DNA of 41,696 nucleotides from Candidatus Arcticimaribacter sp. (lineage in GTDB: Bacteria; Bacteroidota; Bacteroidia; Flavobacteriales; Flavobacteriaceae). This document shows, piece after piece, positions 8,246 through 17,660 of this stretch. Position numbers and translations under genes: made by a program. The notes beneath the pieces are model-generated. The model saw nothing but the letters and a program-made list of their open reading frames with translations. It did no database searches and was not told the DNA's origin. Numbering within the stretch: position 1 is the first letter of the stretch; each line of letters starts with the position of its first letter. The stretch lies in assembly GCA_011526285.1 (NCBI GenBank), contig WTJU01000078.1, positions 1 through 41,696 of the forward strand. The letters are read 5' to 3'.

Positions 8246-9301
8246 TTAATTTATTTTTTGAAAACGATCTATATCAACTGCCGCTGGCAGGGATTTTCCT
8301 TCTTCGATAAATGCATATAACCAGTTGGAAGCTAGTGGTGCTGTTAAGACACCACGAGAACCAAGACCATTAAATAAATAAAGCTGTTTGTGCTGTGGGT
8401 GTGCACCAAGTAAAGGTCTTCTGTCTTTTACTGTGGGGCGTATATGGCTTATGTGTTTTTCTATAGTATAGGGTACGTCAATCATTTTAGCTATTTTATC
8501 GCATATCCATTGTTTTCCCTTTGCTGTGGTTTCTAAAGATTTGTCGTGCTGCTCAAAAGACGCTCCTGCCCAATACAGATCATCTCCTAAAGGGGCAATA
8601 AAGATTGGTCCTTTTAAAATAGCGGTTGAGTTTAATTTTGGGGAACGAATTATTAAAATCTGACCTTTTGATCCCACCAAGGGTAAATGATTAAAGAAAG
8701 GGTTATTTACCATGGCATAGCCTTCACAAAAAACAATGTGTTTCGCTTTTATGTTTTTGTAGCGAATTCCTTCTGGTAAAATTTCCAAGGCTGAAAAATC
8801 AAAACAAGCCTCTGTTATGTTTGTTTCTATTGTGGTTTTATACGCTTCTATTAAGCGGGTAGTGTTGATTCTTCCACAAGATTGAAGTTCTCCATACCCA
8901 AAGAGTGCTTTAACGCCTTCAATTGTATCCTTATTGATTGTTGGCAATAAGAAATTAGATAATCCTGATCGATCAGCAGCCACCATCCATTGATTGTGCT
9001 CCGAACTGTCATTAAACAACTTATAAATGGGTGCTGGATAATCAATGGAAACTTTTAAACGCTGGGCAATTTTTGTGTAAAAAGGTAGGGCAGTTTGGTG
9101 AAATTCTTCTCCATTCCATGTCATGTTAAAGCGTTTCAAGACTGTTGGATTATAAATTCCTGCCGCAATAACAGAAGATCCTGCACCGCTTTGATCAATT
9201 ACATGAAAGGATTTCTGATTTTCTCGAAGTGTTTCAACATAGGCCAAACCAGCAAGGCCGAGACCAACCACTAAAACATTTACTTCTTTCATTGCACCCA
9301 A
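8246..9301 (-). CDS. FAD-dependent oxidoreductase (DAO superfamily)
   Basis: 351 aa; N-terminal VLVVGLGLAGLAYVETL dinucleotide-binding motif; C-terminal RPTVKDRRPLLGAHP...YLFNGLGSRGVLTAPL typical of DAO/glycine-oxidase-like proteins. Confidence 0.85.
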   Translation of the reverse strand: MGAMKEVNVLVVGLGLAGLAYVETLRENQKSFHVIDQSGAGSSVIAAGIYNPTVLKRFNMTWNGEEFHQTALPFYTKIAQRLKVSIDYPAPIYKLFNDSSEHNQWMVAADRSGLSNFLLPTINKDTIEGVKALFGYGELQSCGRINTTRLIEAYKTTIETNITEACFDFSALEILPEGIRYKNIKAKHIVFCEGYAMVNNPFFNHLPLVGSKGQILIIRSPKLNSTAILKGPIFIAPLGDDLYWAGASFEQHDKSLETTAKGKQWICDKIAKMIDVPYTIEKHISHIRPTVKDRRPLLGAHPQHKQLYLFNGLGSRGVLTAPLASNWLYAFIEEGKSLPAAVDIDRFQKIN

Positions 9302-9356: not shown

Positions 9357-10289
9357 TTAATTATTCCACATGTCTTGCTCAAAATCACGAATAACTGATT
9401 TGATTCGCTCAGATTCGAGCAATTGTTGCAATGCATCTTCGAAAATATAATTTTGCACTTCGCGATCTTCATACACGTTTTCTTCTTTGTAGATAACGGC
9501 ATTAAATCGACGTGAGTTTAGCATATGATCAAACGTAATGGGTTGTGAAGAGTTTCTGGTGTTAAACACAAAGGCTTCATTAAGTACTTCGCGTGCATCT
9601 GGAAACCACACCCAAAACAAGGGATATGTTTCATTAGGATCGCCAGGAGGAGCAGCATCTGGATCAGGATTTTTAAACTGTAAATCCGTAGCACAAGGCG
9701 CTATTCCTAAAAGTCGGTACTTCATTTCACCTTGACGTTTGTCAAAGTACCAAGTTCCCTTAATTCTATATTCTAAAACATCTGCAGAGGTAGTTTTAAC
9801 AGGCACTTGCAAATCTGCTAAGATTTCAGGATCTGTAACCCCAGCATTTATCGCTTCTGTGTATTGCTCTGTTTCAAAAACATAACTTAGTTTATCTAGC
9901 ACTTGCTGATAGGTAAGTTTTGTTCTAAAATAACCACCGTCGTCAAAATATACTTCTTTGATTCTACCATCTTCTATTCCCTTAATCATTACATCGAAAA
10001 GTGAACGTCTTTCATCTCCAAGGTTCCCAGGTTCAGAAGGGAAATAGAAAGGGAAGTTAATTCGCTCGTCTAGATCAATACGTTCCCAAATGGTTTTAGA
10101 CCATAGAACGTCGCGATCATCAATGTAGCCATAAGGCAATGGATCTTCATCATTTGCGGCAATTTGTTGTTCATTTAGTTTACCTACTTCTTGTGGTACT
10201 CTTGCATTAAGCAAGTTTGCTTGAGCCATAACATTGTTCATGGACAAGGTGAAGACAAACAGAAAAACGACAAATGATGAATTTCTCAT
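9357..10289 (-). CDS. gldN: Gliding motility / type IX secretion protein GldN
   Basis: 310 aa; signal peptide; DDRDVLWSKTIWERIDLDERINFPFYFP; last gene of the gldKLMN order. Confidence 0.93.
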   Translation of the reverse strand: MRNSSFVVFLFVFTLSMNNVMAQANLLNARVPQEVGKLNEQQIAANDEDPLPYGYIDDRDVLWSKTIWERIDLDERINFPFYFPSEPGNLGDERRSLFDVMIKGIEDGRIKEVYFDDGGYFRTKLTYQQVLDKLSYVFETEQYTEAINAGVTDPEILADLQVPVKTTSADVLEYRIKGTWYFDKRQGEMKYRLLGIAPCATDLQFKNPDPDAAPPGDPNETYPLFWVWFPDAREVLNEAFVFNTRNSSQPITFDHMLNSRRFNAVIYKEENVYEDREVQNYIFEDALQQLLESERIKSVIRDFEQDMWNN

Positions 10290-10292
10290 GGT

Positions 10293-11873
10293 TTATAATA
10301 TTTCGATTAGGACAGGTGCTACCCGCTTAAATCTATAGTTAGGTTTAGCTGGGTTTTGAACTTTCAAATCAAAAATACTTATCTCTTGTCCTTTACGTGC
10401 TTTGCTAAGCGCTTGTTTGGCTTGACCATTCAAACGAGTTCCTTTGCACGTAATGGTTGGAGAACCAGGTATTTTGATTTTAAACTCTAAAGTGTTTAAG
10501 GTTAAATCAAAGTCAAAGTCTTCCATAATCGCTCCTACTTGAGCACGTTCTACACTCGCTTTTGGTAAACGTATTTTACCAGACTGGTTAAAGAATGTTG
10601 CGCTTGGGCGTGGTAGATCTTTAATTCTGAATTTTGTTCTTGTAGATATGCTTTGACCATCAGGTAATTTTCCTGTGGCAGAGATAGTTACTTCTTTTCC
10701 TTTTCCTGGACTCATGTTGAACTTGCTTCCTCGTGAACGACGTAAACCTGGCGCAGATGCGTTGATTTTATCGTCTGGAATTCCAGGGATAGAAATTGTC
10801 ATTGGGTTATCTACACCGCGATAAACTACGTTCATCTTATCGGCAGAAATAACCGCAGCATTTGGTTTAGAGATAACTGCAAACGACTGTGATACAGGTA
10901 TTCTTGACTCAACTCCCGCGTTACGGAATATTAAATCACCCTCGATAACGTGATCACCAGGACGTCCTGCGTTGACGTTTAATTTAATTCCTCCAGGAAT
11001 TTTCTCATATTCGCTAGGGTCTAGTTTACGACCGTCAAGCGTAACATCAACATCATTTGGGTTTTGTGCACCACTTTTACGACCAAGAATTACACTCCCA
11101 TCAAAAGTTTCGCCTTGATAGTAAGCTCCTTTATCGGCTTTCAATAATGTGATGTAGTTATCTGTAGTTACCTTGCTACTTGCTTCTAACTCTTTCCCAA
11201 GTAATGCATTCAATACATCGCTTTCTGTTAAACGAATATCGTTTTGCATCATGGTAAGTTTCGCTAAGGATGAAATTAATGGAAATCCTTCATAGTTGTA
11301 AGATAACCAAGGCTGTGGTTGTCCGTCACTATTTTCAACATTTCCTTCAAAATCTCCTGTAAAGAAGCGCTCTTCTACCAATTCTGTATACTGTGGGAAT
11401 TGCGATGCGAATACTTGAATGACACGCATTTTGTAGTTATTTATCATATCGATAAATTCCTGTCCCTCAGGAGATACACCATTGGCATCAAAGAAGATAA
11501 GGTCTAATGATTCACCCTTATCCATCTGCCCATATTCATTTAATTCAGGGTCAGCTTCTCTTTGCTTTTCGGTTATTGCATCTTTAATTTCTTGAATACG
11601 CGTATAGAAGGCATCAGATTCTTTGCGAATTTCTTTAGCAGTTCGGTCGTGACCAATCCACTTACCTTCTTTTTCTTTGGCGTTTACCTCTATTTTGTCA
11701 TAGTAAATGACATTTCCTTGGTTAACGCGCTCATTTGCACTTTGGATTTTTTTGAACATTTGTCCAAACCCATCCAAAACTTCTTTACTTACATTCAATG
11801 CTAACATGGTAATAAATACCAAGTACATCAACGCAATAAGTTTATTACGTGGGGTTTCATTTGCTCCTGCCAT
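10293..11873 (-). CDS. gldM: Gliding motility / type IX secretion motor protein GldM
   Basis: 526 aa; MAGANETPRNKLIALMYLVFITMLALNVSKEVLDGF is the characteristic GldM N-terminal TM helix. Confidence 0.96.
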   Translation of the reverse strand: MAGANETPRNKLIALMYLVFITMLALNVSKEVLDGFGQMFKKIQSANERVNQGNVIYYDKIEVNAKEKEGKWIGHDRTAKEIRKESDAFYTRIQEIKDAITEKQREADPELNEYGQMDKGESLDLIFFDANGVSPEGQEFIDMINNYKMRVIQVFASQFPQYTELVEERFFTGDFEGNVENSDGQPQPWLSYNYEGFPLISSLAKLTMMQNDIRLTESDVLNALLGKELEASSKVTTDNYITLLKADKGAYYQGETFDGSVILGRKSGAQNPNDVDVTLDGRKLDPSEYEKIPGGIKLNVNAGRPGDHVIEGDLIFRNAGVESRIPVSQSFAVISKPNAAVISADKMNVVYRGVDNPMTISIPGIPDDKINASAPGLRRSRGSKFNMSPGKGKEVTISATGKLPDGQSISTRTKFRIKDLPRPSATFFNQSGKIRLPKASVERAQVGAIMEDFDFDLTLNTLEFKIKIPGSPTITCKGTRLNGQAKQALSKARKGQEISIFDLKVQNPAKPNYRFKRVAPVLIEIL

Positions 11874-11880
11874 GGCTTAC

Positions 11881-12525
11881 TTAGTTTTTGTTCATAGCAG
11901 AAAGCATTCCACCATATACTTGATTTAAGGAAGCTAGGTTATCAGACAACGACTCCATTTGAGCTTTTAATCGCTCAGCATTTTGAGCAACTTGGTCGTT
12001 GTATGAGCCGTGTGCACCAGCGCTTTGTACTTGTGCAGCGTATAATTCGTTTAAGGCCTCAAGTTGAACTGCAGCTTTGTTAAGCTGATCAGCATAGCTT
12101 TGAGAAGATGAAGCTGCTTCAGCAGCAGGGGTCAATGCTTTTGCAGATGCTTCAAGGTTTTGGATGCTTCGTGTTAAACCTCCAATGAGTGCAACATCCA
12201 TCTTAGCCTCTTGCAATAATTCATCAATTTTTGAAGACAATCCTTCTTCTTTTGCACCTCCAGCAGAATGACCTTCTCCAGAATGGTGTTCGATATATGC
12301 ATCGTGTTCTTCACGTACATCGTCTAGCATTAATCCCCCAACAAGGAAGATAATTGCCTCTGTTCCTAGACCAAGTCCAAGTACTACCCCACCAGTAATG
12401 GGTCCAATCTCTAAGTGAAGAATTTTAAATAATGCTCCAACAATTACAACAGCTCCACCAATTTGGAAAAGCATGTGCATGATAATCTTTCTTCTTAAGC
12501 GTCCTTTAAGTTTTTGTGCGTCCAT
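11881..12525 (-). CDS. gldL: Gliding motility / type IX secretion motor protein GldL
   Basis: 214 aa; two N-terminal TM helices (IIMHMLFQIGGAVVIVGALFKILHL; GVVLGLGLGTEAIIFLVGGL); position in gldKLMN. Confidence 0.95.
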   Translation of the reverse strand: MDAQKLKGRLRRKIIMHMLFQIGGAVVIVGALFKILHLEIGPITGGVVLGLGLGTEAIIFLVGGLMLDDVREEHDAYIEHHSGEGHSAGGAKEEGLSSKIDELLQEAKMDVALIGGLTRSIQNLEASAKALTPAAEAASSSQSYADQLNKAAVQLEALNELYAAQVQSAGAHGSYNDQVAQNAERLKAQMESLSDNLASLNQVYGGMLSAMNKN

Positions 12526-12567: not shown

Positions 12568-13944
12568 CTATTTAATTTTGACTTTTTCTGAGCCTAAATA
12601 GTCTTGTACTGTTCGAAAGCCAATATAGCTTCTAGCCGTATCTTGGTATTCATAATCACGTGAGCTTACGCGTAAAAAATAAGCCACATCTTTCCAGGAT
12701 CCACCACGAACAACTTTTCGCTTTTCTTTCTCCAAAGACATGTTTGGATTAAGCGATGATACATATTCGTATGCTCCTGGATCGTAAGAAGACTCCGTCC
12801 ATTCTGAAACGTTTCCAGCCATGTTGTAAAGGTTGAAATCGTTCGGTAGATAGGACTTTGCTTCCACAGCATACATTGCTTGGTCAGCAGAATAGTCTCC
12901 ACGTATCGGTTTAAAGTTAGCCAAGAAGCATCCGCGGTCATTTAGCAAGTATGGAGATCCCCAAGGATAAGTTCCAGAAGGAATACCTCCACGAGCGGCA
13001 TATTCCCACTCTGCTTCTGTTGGTAACCTAAAGTTGTTTACTAAAGGTTTATTTTTTTCTTTTTGGTAAGAGTTTTTATAGTGTGTTCTCCAACTACAGA
13101 ATGCAACTGCTTGTTTCCACGAAACGCCAACCACAGGATAATCTTGATACGCCGGATGCCAAAAATAATCGTTGTGCATAGGCTCGTTGTACGAGTAATT
13201 AAAATCTTTAATCCACACAGTAGTATCAGGGTAGATTTCTAATTCCTCTTTTTTGATAAAAGGTAAACGATCGCGCATGGTAGGATCTTTCTCACGCGCA
13301 AGGGAAGCTGCTTCAGCATCAAACCACGCATATTTATATCGCAACTTGTTTACGTCGATTTTCATTTCACCGTTGTACCATACTTCTGGTGGTAAGTAAA
13401 GACTATCCATCACCTCAACGTAAGCCAAATCTACATAGCTGTTCGGATCCCATTCTATGTCTTGATCCCAATTTAATGGACGTCCTAATAAAGGCTCTCC
13501 AGTTTCAGGGTCAATGTAGTTTTCACGCATGTATTTTTGGAAAGGCGACATGTCGGCAGTATCGGCATCCTTAAATGCGAATTCACCAATACCTTCACCT
13601 CCACCCTCTTCACCAAGGTTCATTTCTTCGGCTTTACGCGCTAGCATTGATAGGGCTACAGAATCGCGTACCCAATATACAAATTGACGGTATTCACTAT
13701 TAGTAATCTCAGTTTCATCCATGTAGAATGAACGAACGGTAACTGTTTTTGCAGGGGCATTTCTGAGTTGGGCAACGTCGTCATCTTGTTTTCCCATTAT
13801 GAATGCACCACCCTCAACAAGGGTCATTCCATAAGGCTTTTCGGGAAACCATTTCTTTTGCTTTACACCAACCAGTTCACCACGTTTGTTTCCACATGCA
13901 TAAAGCAGTAGGCAGGCAAAAATGAAAACAACTATTTTCTTCAT
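12568..13944 (-). CDS. gldK: Gliding motility / type IX secretion lipoprotein GldK (SUMF1/FGE-like domain)
   Basis: 458 aa; lipobox LLYACGNK; GGAFIMGKQDDD...RSFYMDETEITNSEYRQFVYWVRDS...FRLPTEAEWEYAARGG...YNMAGNVSEWTES...VVRGGSWKD. Confidence 0.95.
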   Translation of the reverse strand: MKKIVVFIFACLLLYACGNKRGELVGVKQKKWFPEKPYGMTLVEGGAFIMGKQDDDVAQLRNAPAKTVTVRSFYMDETEITNSEYRQFVYWVRDSVALSMLARKAEEMNLGEEGGGEGIGEFAFKDADTADMSPFQKYMRENYIDPETGEPLLGRPLNWDQDIEWDPNSYVDLAYVEVMDSLYLPPEVWYNGEMKIDVNKLRYKYAWFDAEAASLAREKDPTMRDRLPFIKKEELEIYPDTTVWIKDFNYSYNEPMHNDYFWHPAYQDYPVVGVSWKQAVAFCSWRTHYKNSYQKEKNKPLVNNFRLPTEAEWEYAARGGIPSGTYPWGSPYLLNDRGCFLANFKPIRGDYSADQAMYAVEAKSYLPNDFNLYNMAGNVSEWTESSYDPGAYEYVSSLNPNMSLEKEKRKVVRGGSWKDVAYFLRVSSRDYEYQDTARSYIGFRTVQDYLGSEKVKIK

Positions 13945-14024: not shown

Positions 14025-15173
14025 TCAACTTCTTTTGGATGCCTTCCACCATCGGTCGGGCAAAATATCGTTACACGCATCTTGATAATCTTGATGTGTG
14101 CATGATATTAACGCATTTGTTTTTCTTTTATTATACAAATAACTCTCTTTGGTTAATTCCATCCACCAGCGTTGGCTCTTATTACTCTTAAAAAAAACCA
14201 ATTCTCGATCAGACATTTGAACCGTGTAGCGTGTAAAACCTTGGCTTGTCGCAACAGGATACTCGTCAAAGCGACAATGCACTCCCTCAACAAAATACCA
14301 AACGATTTGCGCCAATAATTTATGGAATATTAAAGCATTACTTAAATCAAAACAGCCTAGCATGCTTACTTTATCACTAATTCCGGCATAGCGGGCAAGT
14401 GCACAAATTGTTCTGGAATCTATCCCGTTGGGCATTCCATTGGGATAATTACCACTGGCTACACCACTTAATACTTTCATGTCAAAACTCACTATATCTG
14501 CCTCTCTAAAAACAGGCTCTGTAGTTTGGGGTTGATCGAGAACATGTCCTAATCGATAGGCTTCAAAAAAGAGTTTGTCCATCAAATCAAGTTCTTCTTG
14601 CGCAATTAAGTAAGATTGGTAACCTATATTGGTGAAATTATACAGTTTACTGGGGGTTTCCATGATAATTTCACTCATGTATGACCTACCAGAGATTAAT
14701 TCCTCTTCTTGAGAAAAATCGAAACGATTATCAACAGAGACAATATTAACCCACTGGTTGTGCTCACTAAATGAACGATAGAGGGCAACGGTTAAGTCTT
14801 GGCTACCGCCCAACACAATGGGAATAACATTAATTTGTTTAAGGTAACTGCAAATGGCAGATAATGCGTGATAAGTATCTTCGGTTGTTTCACCAGAAGG
14901 CAAATCCCCCAAGTCTGCAATATTCACAGACCAATTGCCTGGGTAAAGCTGATAAAATTCTCTTCGAAAAGCGTCCATGTCATATTCCATAACGGGATAG
15001 TAACTGTTTCTGCTTTCTTGAACTCCTATAATGGCTAAACGCACTTCTTTTAGCTCAGGAAACCCTTGCTTTTCTGTATGGACTTGAATTGATTTCCCGA
15101 TGACCTGTTTGGGAAGCAAAGAGGCAACACCCAACACAGTATCATCAACAGGAGTAAGGAAATCTAAACTCAT
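14025..15173 (-). CDS. Arginase/formimidoylglutamase-family protein with degenerate metal site
   Basis: 382 aa; arginase-fold landmarks VLGGSQD, SVDNRFD, SFDMKVLSG at positions of GGDHS, DAHxD, SxDxDxxDP. Immediately follows the topA stop. Confidence 0.85.
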   Translation of the reverse strand: MSLDFLTPVDDTVLGVASLLPKQVIGKSIQVHTEKQGFPELKEVRLAIIGVQESRNSYYPVMEYDMDAFRREFYQLYPGNWSVNIADLGDLPSGETTEDTYHALSAICSYLKQINVIPIVLGGSQDLTVALYRSFSEHNQWVNIVSVDNRFDFSQEEELISGRSYMSEIIMETPSKLYNFTNIGYQSYLIAQEELDLMDKLFFEAYRLGHVLDQPQTTEPVFREADIVSFDMKVLSGVASGNYPNGMPNGIDSRTICALARYAGISDKVSMLGCFDLSNALIFHKLLAQIVWYFVEGVHCRFDEYPVATSQGFTRYTVQMSDRELVFFKSNKSQRWWMELTKESYLYNKRKTNALISCTHQDYQDACNDILPDRWWKASKRS

Positions 15174-17660
15174 TTATTTTTTTGTTTTTCGCTTCGTTGT
15201 AGCCTTTTTCTTTTTTGGCTGTTTGGCTTCTAAACGCTTTTTTGCTTCTTCTAGCGTGATTTTTGTAGGATCAATGTCTTTAGACAGTTCTACTTTAATT
15301 TTTCCTTGAATAATATTGGAACGTCCCCAGCGGGCTTTTTCAACACGAATCCCTTCTTCCTCCCAATTGTGAATTACCTTATCTTTCTCTTTTTGGATCT
15401 TTTCTTCGATCAACGTCACTATATCTTCATCAGAAAGGTTATCAAAATCATATTTCTTGTTCACATTGATAAACATACCACTCCACTTTATGAAAGGACC
15501 AAAACGCCCTACTCCTTTTGTGACAGGTAAATTATTATGCGTGTAAATAGGAGCATCTGCTTTTTTCTTTTCTTCAATTAGCTGTATGGCCAAGTCACGG
15601 TCTACTTCCATTGGGTTTTTCCCTTTTGGCAAGGAGACAAATGTGCTTCCAAACTTAACATAAGGCCCGTAGCGGCCATTGTTTACGCTAATGATTTCAC
15701 CATCATATTCACCGAAGTCTTTTGGTAGTTGAAACAACTCTAACGCCTCTTCAAACGTTATGGTGTCTAATTGCTGATCTTGGTTTAAACTGGCAAATAC
15801 CACTGCTTCTTCATCATCAGCATCGCCAATTTGAGCAATAGGGCCAAATTTCCCTAATCTCACCTTCACCGTACGACCATTGTCAGGATGTTTCCCTAAA
15901 ATACGCTCGCCAGATTCACGTTCTGCGTGTTCTTTAACGTGGTTTACAGTCGATTGAAAATCGCCATAAAAACCTTTTATCATTTTAACCCAATCCTCTT
16001 TTCCTTCGGCAATTTCATCAAAATTTTGTTCTACTTGCGCTGTGAAGTTGTAATCGAGAATATCTTCAAAATTATTGACCAAAAAGTCATTGACAATCAT
16101 GCCAATATCCGTTGGAACAAGTTTTCCCTTGTCAGAACCGACCATCTCTGTTAATCGACTCAATTCGACTGCTCCATTCTCAAGTGAAAACTGTTGGTAG
16201 GAACGTTGCGTGCCTTCAATTGTTCCTTTAGCTATATATCCTCGGTTCTGCACCGTAGAAATTGTAGGGGCATAGGTAGAAGGACGACCAATGCCCAATT
16301 CTTCTAATTTTTTAACTAGTGAAGCCTCAGTAAATCGATAGGGCGGTCGAGAGAAGCGCTGGGTAGACACCAAGCTTTTCAATTGCAAATCATCACCTTC
16401 ATTTACTGGTGGAAGGATTCCTTGTGCTTCTTCTTCATCATCGTCAACTCCTTCGAGATAAACCTTTAAAAATCCTTCAAAAGTGAGGATTTCACCACGT
16501 GCAGTAAAGGTTTCATTGTGTTGATCTGCATTAATCTTTAATACGGTGCGCTCGAGCTTAGCATCACTCATTTGTGAAGCGATGGTGCGCTTCCAAATTA
16601 ACTCATACAATCGCATTTGATCATAATCAACCGCTACTTTATCGCGTCGTAAATCGGTTGGTCGAATTGCTTCGTGTGCCTCTTGCGCTCCTTTACTTTT
16701 GTTTCTAAAGTTCCGTGCTTGTGCATAATCTGCTCCGTAACGTGCTTCAATTTCACTTAAAGCTGCATTCTGTGCTTCTTTTGAAAGGTTTACACTATCA
16801 GTTCGCATGTAAGTAATGAGTCCAGACTCATACAGACGTTGCGCCAAGGTCATGGTTTTACTAACTGAGAAAAATAATTTTCGCGCTGCCTCTTGTTGTA
16901 AGGTAGACGTTGTAAAAGGTGCTGTTGGGCTTTTTTTAGCAGGTTTGGTCTCTTTTAAGGAAACACTAAAATTAGCCGCCTTGTTTTTTTGTAAAAATGC
17001 TTCTACTGCTTCAGAATCGTCAAATGTTGTGTTGAGATTCGCCTTAATTGGCTTTTTGTCATTCGTTAAAAACTCAGCTTGGGTTTTAAACATAGACACA
17101 GGAACAAATGCTTTTATTTCTCTTTCGCGCTCTACAATTAATCGTACCGAAACAGACTGAACCCGTCCAGCAGAAAGACCTCCTTTAACTTTTCGCCATA
17201 GCACAGGTGATAATTCATACCCCACTAAACGGTCTAGAACACGACGCGCTTGTTGGGCATTCACCAAATTGTAATCAATATCACGTGGCGTCTCAATGGC
17301 TTTGAGAATTGCATTTTTGGTAATTTCATGGAAAACAATACGCTTGGTATTTTCTCCTTTTAGTTTAAGGGTGTTGGCCAAATGCCATGCAATGGCTTCT
17401 CCTTCTCGGTCTTCATCACTCGCAAGCCAAACCGTATCGGCTTTCTTTGCCAACGATTTTAATTCGCTAACCACTTTTTTCTTGTCGGAAGAGACGATGT
17501 ACTTGGGTAAAAAATCTCCATCTACATTTACACCTAACTCTTTTGAAGGTAAATCGGCGATGTGACCAAAACTAGAAGCTACCTTGTAATCTTTACCTAA
17601 AAATTTCTCAATTGTTTTCGCCTTTGCTGGGGACTCAACAATAACTAAATTCTTTGCCAT
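15174..17660 (-). CDS. topA: DNA topoisomerase I (type IA)
   Basis: 828 aa; MAKNLVIVESPAKAKTIEKFLGKDYKVASSFGHIADLP; catalytic RLYESGLITYMRTDS; C-terminal GRYGPYVKFG repeats. Confidence 0.97.
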   Translation of the reverse strand: MAKNLVIVESPAKAKTIEKFLGKDYKVASSFGHIADLPSKELGVNVDGDFLPKYIVSSDKKKVVSELKSLAKKADTVWLASDEDREGEAIAWHLANTLKLKGENTKRIVFHEITKNAILKAIETPRDIDYNLVNAQQARRVLDRLVGYELSPVLWRKVKGGLSAGRVQSVSVRLIVEREREIKAFVPVSMFKTQAEFLTNDKKPIKANLNTTFDDSEAVEAFLQKNKAANFSVSLKETKPAKKSPTAPFTTSTLQQEAARKLFFSVSKTMTLAQRLYESGLITYMRTDSVNLSKEAQNAALSEIEARYGADYAQARNFRNKSKGAQEAHEAIRPTDLRRDKVAVDYDQMRLYELIWKRTIASQMSDAKLERTVLKINADQHNETFTARGEILTFEGFLKVYLEGVDDDEEEAQGILPPVNEGDDLQLKSLVSTQRFSRPPYRFTEASLVKKLEELGIGRPSTYAPTISTVQNRGYIAKGTIEGTQRSYQQFSLENGAVELSRLTEMVGSDKGKLVPTDIGMIVNDFLVNNFEDILDYNFTAQVEQNFDEIAEGKEDWVKMIKGFYGDFQSTVNHVKEHAERESGERILGKHPDNGRTVKVRLGKFGPIAQIGDADDEEAVVFASLNQDQQLDTITFEEALELFQLPKDFGEYDGEIISVNNGRYGPYVKFGSTFVSLPKGKNPMEVDRDLAIQLIEEKKKADAPIYTHNNLPVTKGVGRFGPFIKWSGMFINVNKKYDFDNLSDEDIVTLIEEKIQKEKDKVIHNWEEEGIRVEKARWGRSNIIQGKIKVELSKDIDPTKITLEEAKKRLEAKQPKKKKATTKRKTKK

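Follow-up and report, generated by a model that had tools for sequence, protein, structure and literature searches.

The 41,696-nucleotide stretch analysed here (contig WTJU01000078.1 of Candidatus Arcticimaribacter sp.; hereafter the window) carries, between topA and gldKLMN, a gene for an arginase-fold pseudoenzyme, or pseudoarginase, which has lost its di-metal site and is kept across nearly the whole bacterial class Bacteroidia in a very conserved T9SS gene neighbourhood. To our knowledge, arginase-fold pseudoenzymes are known from only a few cases. A preliminary description of the window had read this protein as a probable pseudoenzyme and, as a hypothesis, linked it to the T9SS or gliding. 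The observation as a whole is confirmed with a corrected ligand count; of the interpretation, the fold, the di-metal loss, the C-terminal domain, the misleading HutG label and the gld neighbourhood stand, whereas an obligate T9SS/gliding role does not. We see about an even chance that pseudoarginase is a cytosolic, non-hydrolytic regulator or adaptor derived from a retired ureohydrolase, with the T9SS genes as its ancestral neighbours. A gene can be strongly syntenic with gld genes without having a gld function, and what makes pseudoarginase an attractive knock-out target is a metal site that is half gone, an additional C-terminal domain and persistence after T9SS loss. No mention of it was found in the T9SS papers searched.

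Fold, metal site and C-terminal domain

The pseudoarginase gene (14025..15173, minus strand; ATG at 15173, stop at 14025-14027) encodes 382 amino acids, and the previously quoted motifs and C-terminal extension are all present in this open reading frame. The arginase fold proposed for the product was borne out by a PF00491 match (33.5 bits, cut-off 22), by an AlphaFold model (pLDDT 88.6, pTM 0.91) and by Foldseek, in which metformin hydrolases and formiminoglutamases were the top matches, the latter with TM values of 0.73-0.79 by target length. Fold and a PF00491 score above gathering thus place the protein in the ureohydrolase (arginase) superfamily. The first match of the pseudoarginase family profile was the formimidoylglutamase 3m1r (E 6.5e-16), and in a tree with canonical relatives the pseudoarginases group in a single clade with a long stem, a monophyletic family with modest support (0.62). 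Annotation as formimidoylglutamase would nevertheless be wrong, as had been cautioned, because the HutG equivalog model TIGR01227 scores 28.3 bits against a cut-off of 229 bits. That the protein is an ordinary formimidoylglutamase or arginase, safe to name so in annotation, is therefore exceedingly improbable: family-level matches to PF00491 and TIGR01227 speak for it, but the low TIGR01227 score and the loss of H126 and D234, both of which canonical relatives retain, refute it at the sequence level.

Arginases coordinate manganese through H101, D124, H126, D128, D232 and D234 (rat numbering), with H101, D124, D128 and D232 binding Mn A and H126, D124, D232 and D234 binding Mn B. We judged the corresponding positions by alignment to a canonical arginase encoded on another contig of the window's own genome (L001:1426-2403), which has all six ligands and is devoid of the C-terminal domain. 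The equivalents in the window are Q125, D148, R150, D152, D231 and K233, so that, contrary to the expectation for a superfamily member with a binuclear manganese site and six ligands, the series reads Q, D, R, D, D, K. The motif GGSQD (residues 122-126; 14796..14810, minus strand) carries Q125 at the H101 position of Mn A; in DNRFD (residues 148-152; 14718..14732, minus strand), D148 and D152 correspond to the kept D124 and D128, and R150 replaces H126, a ligand of Mn B only; in SFDMKVLSG (residues 229-237; 14463..14489, minus strand), D231 corresponds to the kept D232, and K233 replaces D234, again a ligand of Mn B only. The alignment thus bears out the loss of the di-metal site, but the earlier count, according to which most ligands were gone, has to be amended to three replaced and three kept.

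The same pattern extends through 146 aligned homologues. D124 is kept in 136, D128 in 130 and D232 in 139 of them; the H101 position is occupied by Q in 114, by H in 16 and otherwise by residues including N; H126 is kept in four and D234 in five, never both together (0/146). As judged from these residues, the Mn A half-site is mostly kept and the Mn B half is gone, the lost ligands private to the second manganese being H126 and D234. Since this degeneration is common to the 146 homologues and dN/dS against the nearest relative is about 0.02, it reflects neither chance nor a sequencing fault; pseudoarginase is under strong purifying selection. The three retained aspartates are nearly as conserved as the glycines of the fold, which could reflect some residual metal chemistry. 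Five of the six ligands are missing in one family (L086-L088, L117), and in two members (L096, L115) the arginase core has shed its N-terminal half but the C-terminal domain is still there, so selection is not acting on the ancestral chemistry. Canonical relatives from other classes (L106-L114) have nearly the full ligand set, in some cases with Asn in place of H101, and no such C-terminal domain.

The arginase core of pseudoarginase ends near residue 300. The C-terminal extension, described beforehand as not expected for arginases, proved to be a separate small domain absent from other ureohydrolases (residues 303-382; 14028..14267, minus strand), composed of four strands and two helices, with F327, W336 and C358 invariant. 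Searched alone, the domain gave no significant sequence match in Pfam or PDB and no significant structural match (best E 0.48, with a query model of moderate pLDDT, 72). In the alignment of 146 homologues, the invariant residues specific to the family fall within this domain and within a few stretches of the core; F203, R207, E219, P220, R223 and W292 are family-specific core residues. No signal peptide is apparent on direct reading of the N terminus.

Distribution and gene neighbourhood

In the window, the pseudoarginase ATG abuts the stop of topA (15174..17660) with zero gap (15173/15174), and gldK (12568..13944) follows after 80 bp, succeeded by gldL (11881..12525), gldM (10293..11873) and gldN (9357..10289), all on the minus strand, in line with the earlier placement of the gene between topA and gldK. 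The closest relatives are 'Candidatus Arcticimaribacter' metagenome-assembled genomes with 91% identity, which assigns the window to a marine member of the Flavobacteriaceae. Downstream of gldN lies a gene for an FAD-dependent oxidoreductase (8246-9301, minus strand; DAO/MnmC-like, below equivalog cut-offs), and such a gene is found after gldN in almost every Flavobacteriaceae locus long enough to cover the position. Two tandem gldN-like ORFs were observed at the operon end in several families (L118, L129, L131, L152, L153, L156).

Pseudoarginase was found in 279 out of 296 sampled Bacteroidia genomes and GldM in 289; pseudoarginase is absent from 12 of these 289 GldM-positive genomes. In a first scan of Flavobacteriales loci, topA preceded the gene and gldK followed it whenever the contig extended far enough, and the loci read display the order topA-pseudoarginase-porP-gldK-L-M-N in some 30 families. 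Of the 77 genomes in which both positions are listed, 47 encode GldM on the same strand within 5.1 kb downstream. A survey of gene neighbourhoods, proposed in the preliminary description as a check, thus finds the place beside gldKLMN conserved across the class, and in this respect pseudoarginase has the conserved linkage to gldKLMN/porKLMN that characterises T9SS components. In two families, the gene is located beside murF-gldJ instead; the N-terminally halved members (L096:3674-4510 and L115:3962-4795) adjoin murF-gldJ-porP.

The tight partner of pseudoarginase is topA rather than gldK, because the median gap to topA is 6 bp (115 loci), against 125 bp to gldK (78 loci) and 142 bp to porP (34 loci), which further weakens the proposed tie to T9SS and gliding. 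Pseudoarginase is probably co-translated with TopA in most families; the link to topA is broken in several.

Retention in genomes without T9SS

The better evidence against the T9SS or gliding as the reason for the existence of pseudoarginase comes from genus g22, in which the gene is intact in 61 out of 61 genomes. Ten of these genomes are without GldM, or have only a remnant of it, lack SprA (one model, E 1e-10) and show no GldK above the cut-off. Seven of the ten (G347, G646, G667, G674, G679, G683, G687) show low contamination and a completeness of 95% or more, and three of the seven are single contigs. The ten genomes occupy several separate places in the pseudoarginase tree, and their genes are full-length. 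Where divergence is low enough for dN/dS to be estimated, selection does not look relaxed: the value is 0.03 for G646 or G635, each compared with G656, which has GldM; most other pairs are too diverged. Retention without T9SS in this genus implies that T9SS cannot be the only function of pseudoarginase, which, with 10 T9SS-less carriers and the 12 GldM-positive non-carriers, does not show the restriction to T9SS genomes expected of a T9SS component. An effect on T9SS may still exist where the two adjoin. It should be noted that four further g22 genomes (G002, G650, G678, G668) encode GldK (about 380 bits) and GldM with no SprA found, which we read as a motor module of the GldK/GldM kind lacking its translocon; the G668 GldM gene is broken into two frames.

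Losses of pseudoarginase coincide with those of GldM and GldJ beyond the expectation for independent genomes, although most of the losses may represent one clade. The possibility that its presence tracks gliding (GldJ, GldD) rather than T9SS was considered and rejected: GldD does not track, and genus g22 contradicts strict dependence. Mirror-tree comparison with GldK/L/M/N and TopA was likewise not used as proof of interaction, because residual correlations exist but those of non-interacting controls reach 0.66. In the literature searched, we found no pseudoarginase mutant that would speak to secretion or gliding, and nothing relevant on arginase, formimidoylglutamase or formiminoglutamase together with gld genes, or on Fjoh_1852, which we take to be the Flavobacterium johnsoniae pseudoarginase gene.

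Candidate roles and comparison with known systems

We favour a vertically inherited Bacteroidia family that would have arisen once from a formiminoglutamase-like ureohydrolase, giving up the second-metal ligands, and thereby di-metal hydrolysis, and acquiring the C-terminal domain. The retained Asp half-site might hold a small ligand or a single divalent cation; a binding face for a partner protein could be formed by the C-terminal domain together with F203, R207, E219, P220, R223 and W292. We infer a cytosolic protein that does not hydrolyse guanidino or formimino substrates, possibly a sensor, adaptor or allosteric subunit; candidate partners would be the putatively co-translated TopA and the canonical ureohydrolase of the same cell, whereas the T9SS genes would be ancestral neighbours and not obligate clients. 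Because two carriers are without a ureohydrolase, adjacency to one is not seen at the inspected loci and the topA link is broken elsewhere, we go no further than a non-hydrolytic regulator or adaptor in the cytosol. A passenger role may not suffice to explain why the gene is almost always next to gldK or porP, should gene order be lost quickly. A tentative, rather doubtful extension would be a cytosolic regulator, made from a retired ureohydrolase and shared by the whole class, through which a metal or metabolite signal reaches functions coupled to TopA and, in genomes that have a T9SS, the neighbouring secretion/gliding motor.

It is unlikely that pseudoarginase is, as initially supposed, a cytosolic accessory of the T9SS/gliding motor, with a second role explaining its survival in T9SS-less genomes; it might, for example, bind to GldL through the latter's cytoplasmic portion, much as PorX does to PorL (PMC5005315), a precedent for a cytosolic regulator. 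The gene order conserved in some 30 families, the proximity of GldM and the murF-gldJ location in the two other families are all consistent with such a role, as are residual distances correlating with those of GldL (0.35-0.56), but this correlation is unspecific, given that GldL against miaB, conditioned on topA, yields 0.66. Pseudoarginase presence is also associated with GldM and with GldJ (47/51 carriers versus 6/17 non-carriers) in tests that ignore shared ancestry. The intact genes of T9SS-less genomes at several places of the g22 tree, the 12 GldM-positive genomes without pseudoarginase and a gap to gldK or porP wide enough for a separate promoter weigh on the other side.

The two remaining alternatives concern the ureohydrolase heritage itself. 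It is unlikely that pseudoarginase pairs, as a subunit without metal, with an active ureohydrolase in the manner of MetCb and MetCa in metformin hydrolase; that precedent (PMC11271267) and the metformin hydrolases among the top Foldseek matches speak for it. The high co-occurrence with a canonical ureohydrolase (47/49 carriers versus 4/9 non-carriers), of which the arginase in the window's genome is an instance, keeps an enzyme-pseudoenzyme pair alive as a rival, but this count ignores shared ancestry, carriers G178 and G561 show no canonical ureohydrolase, none adjoins pseudoarginase at the loci inspected, and in one lineage the fold is missing its N-terminal half. Distinctly unlikely is a protein that is not dead but uses the remaining Mn A ligands to coordinate one metal and catalyses a different reaction in an altered active site. 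D124, D128 and D232 are retained in 89-95% of homologues, with Q, H or N at the H101 position, and Trypanosoma cruzi formiminoglutamase has Asn (N114) there in Mn2 structures (4mxr); the Foldseek match list also includes its N114H variant (4myn). However, metal ligands are dispensable in two pseudoarginase lineages, and no more than 77 of the 146 homologues have Glu at the guanidinium-binding position E277.

Compared with known systems, pseudoarginase is nearest, by profile and structure, to the formimidoylglutamase/HutG-type ureohydrolases (3m1r, 4mxr, TIGR01227), with which it shares the fold; unlike them, it has neither H126 nor D234, carries an added C-terminal domain and falls far below the family cut-off. 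MetCb/MfmB, the arginase-fold pseudoenzyme subunit of the Ni-dependent metformin hydrolase (PMC11271267), is a structural neighbour and likewise a pseudoenzyme, but the neighbouring active and inactive genes typical of that system were not seen at the loci inspected, the arginase gene of the window's genome being on another contig. Pseudoarginase further differs from MetCb/MfmB in being pan-Bacteroidia, in keeping three Asp ligands and in its extra domain. PorX, a cytosolic regulator that binds PorL of the T9SS (PMC5005315), would be the model if pseudoarginase acted on the motor from the cytosol; the two have no sequence relation, and an obligate T9SS role is contradicted for pseudoarginase. 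Finally, the Trypanosoma brucei arginase-like protein (4rhm, in the Foldseek list as the S149D/R151H/S153D/S226D mutant) also combines an arginase fold with several replaced metal ligands, and one pseudoarginase family shows a similar S/I/S/N pattern; that protein is eukaryotic, however, whereas most pseudoarginases keep the A half-site and carry the extra C-terminal domain.
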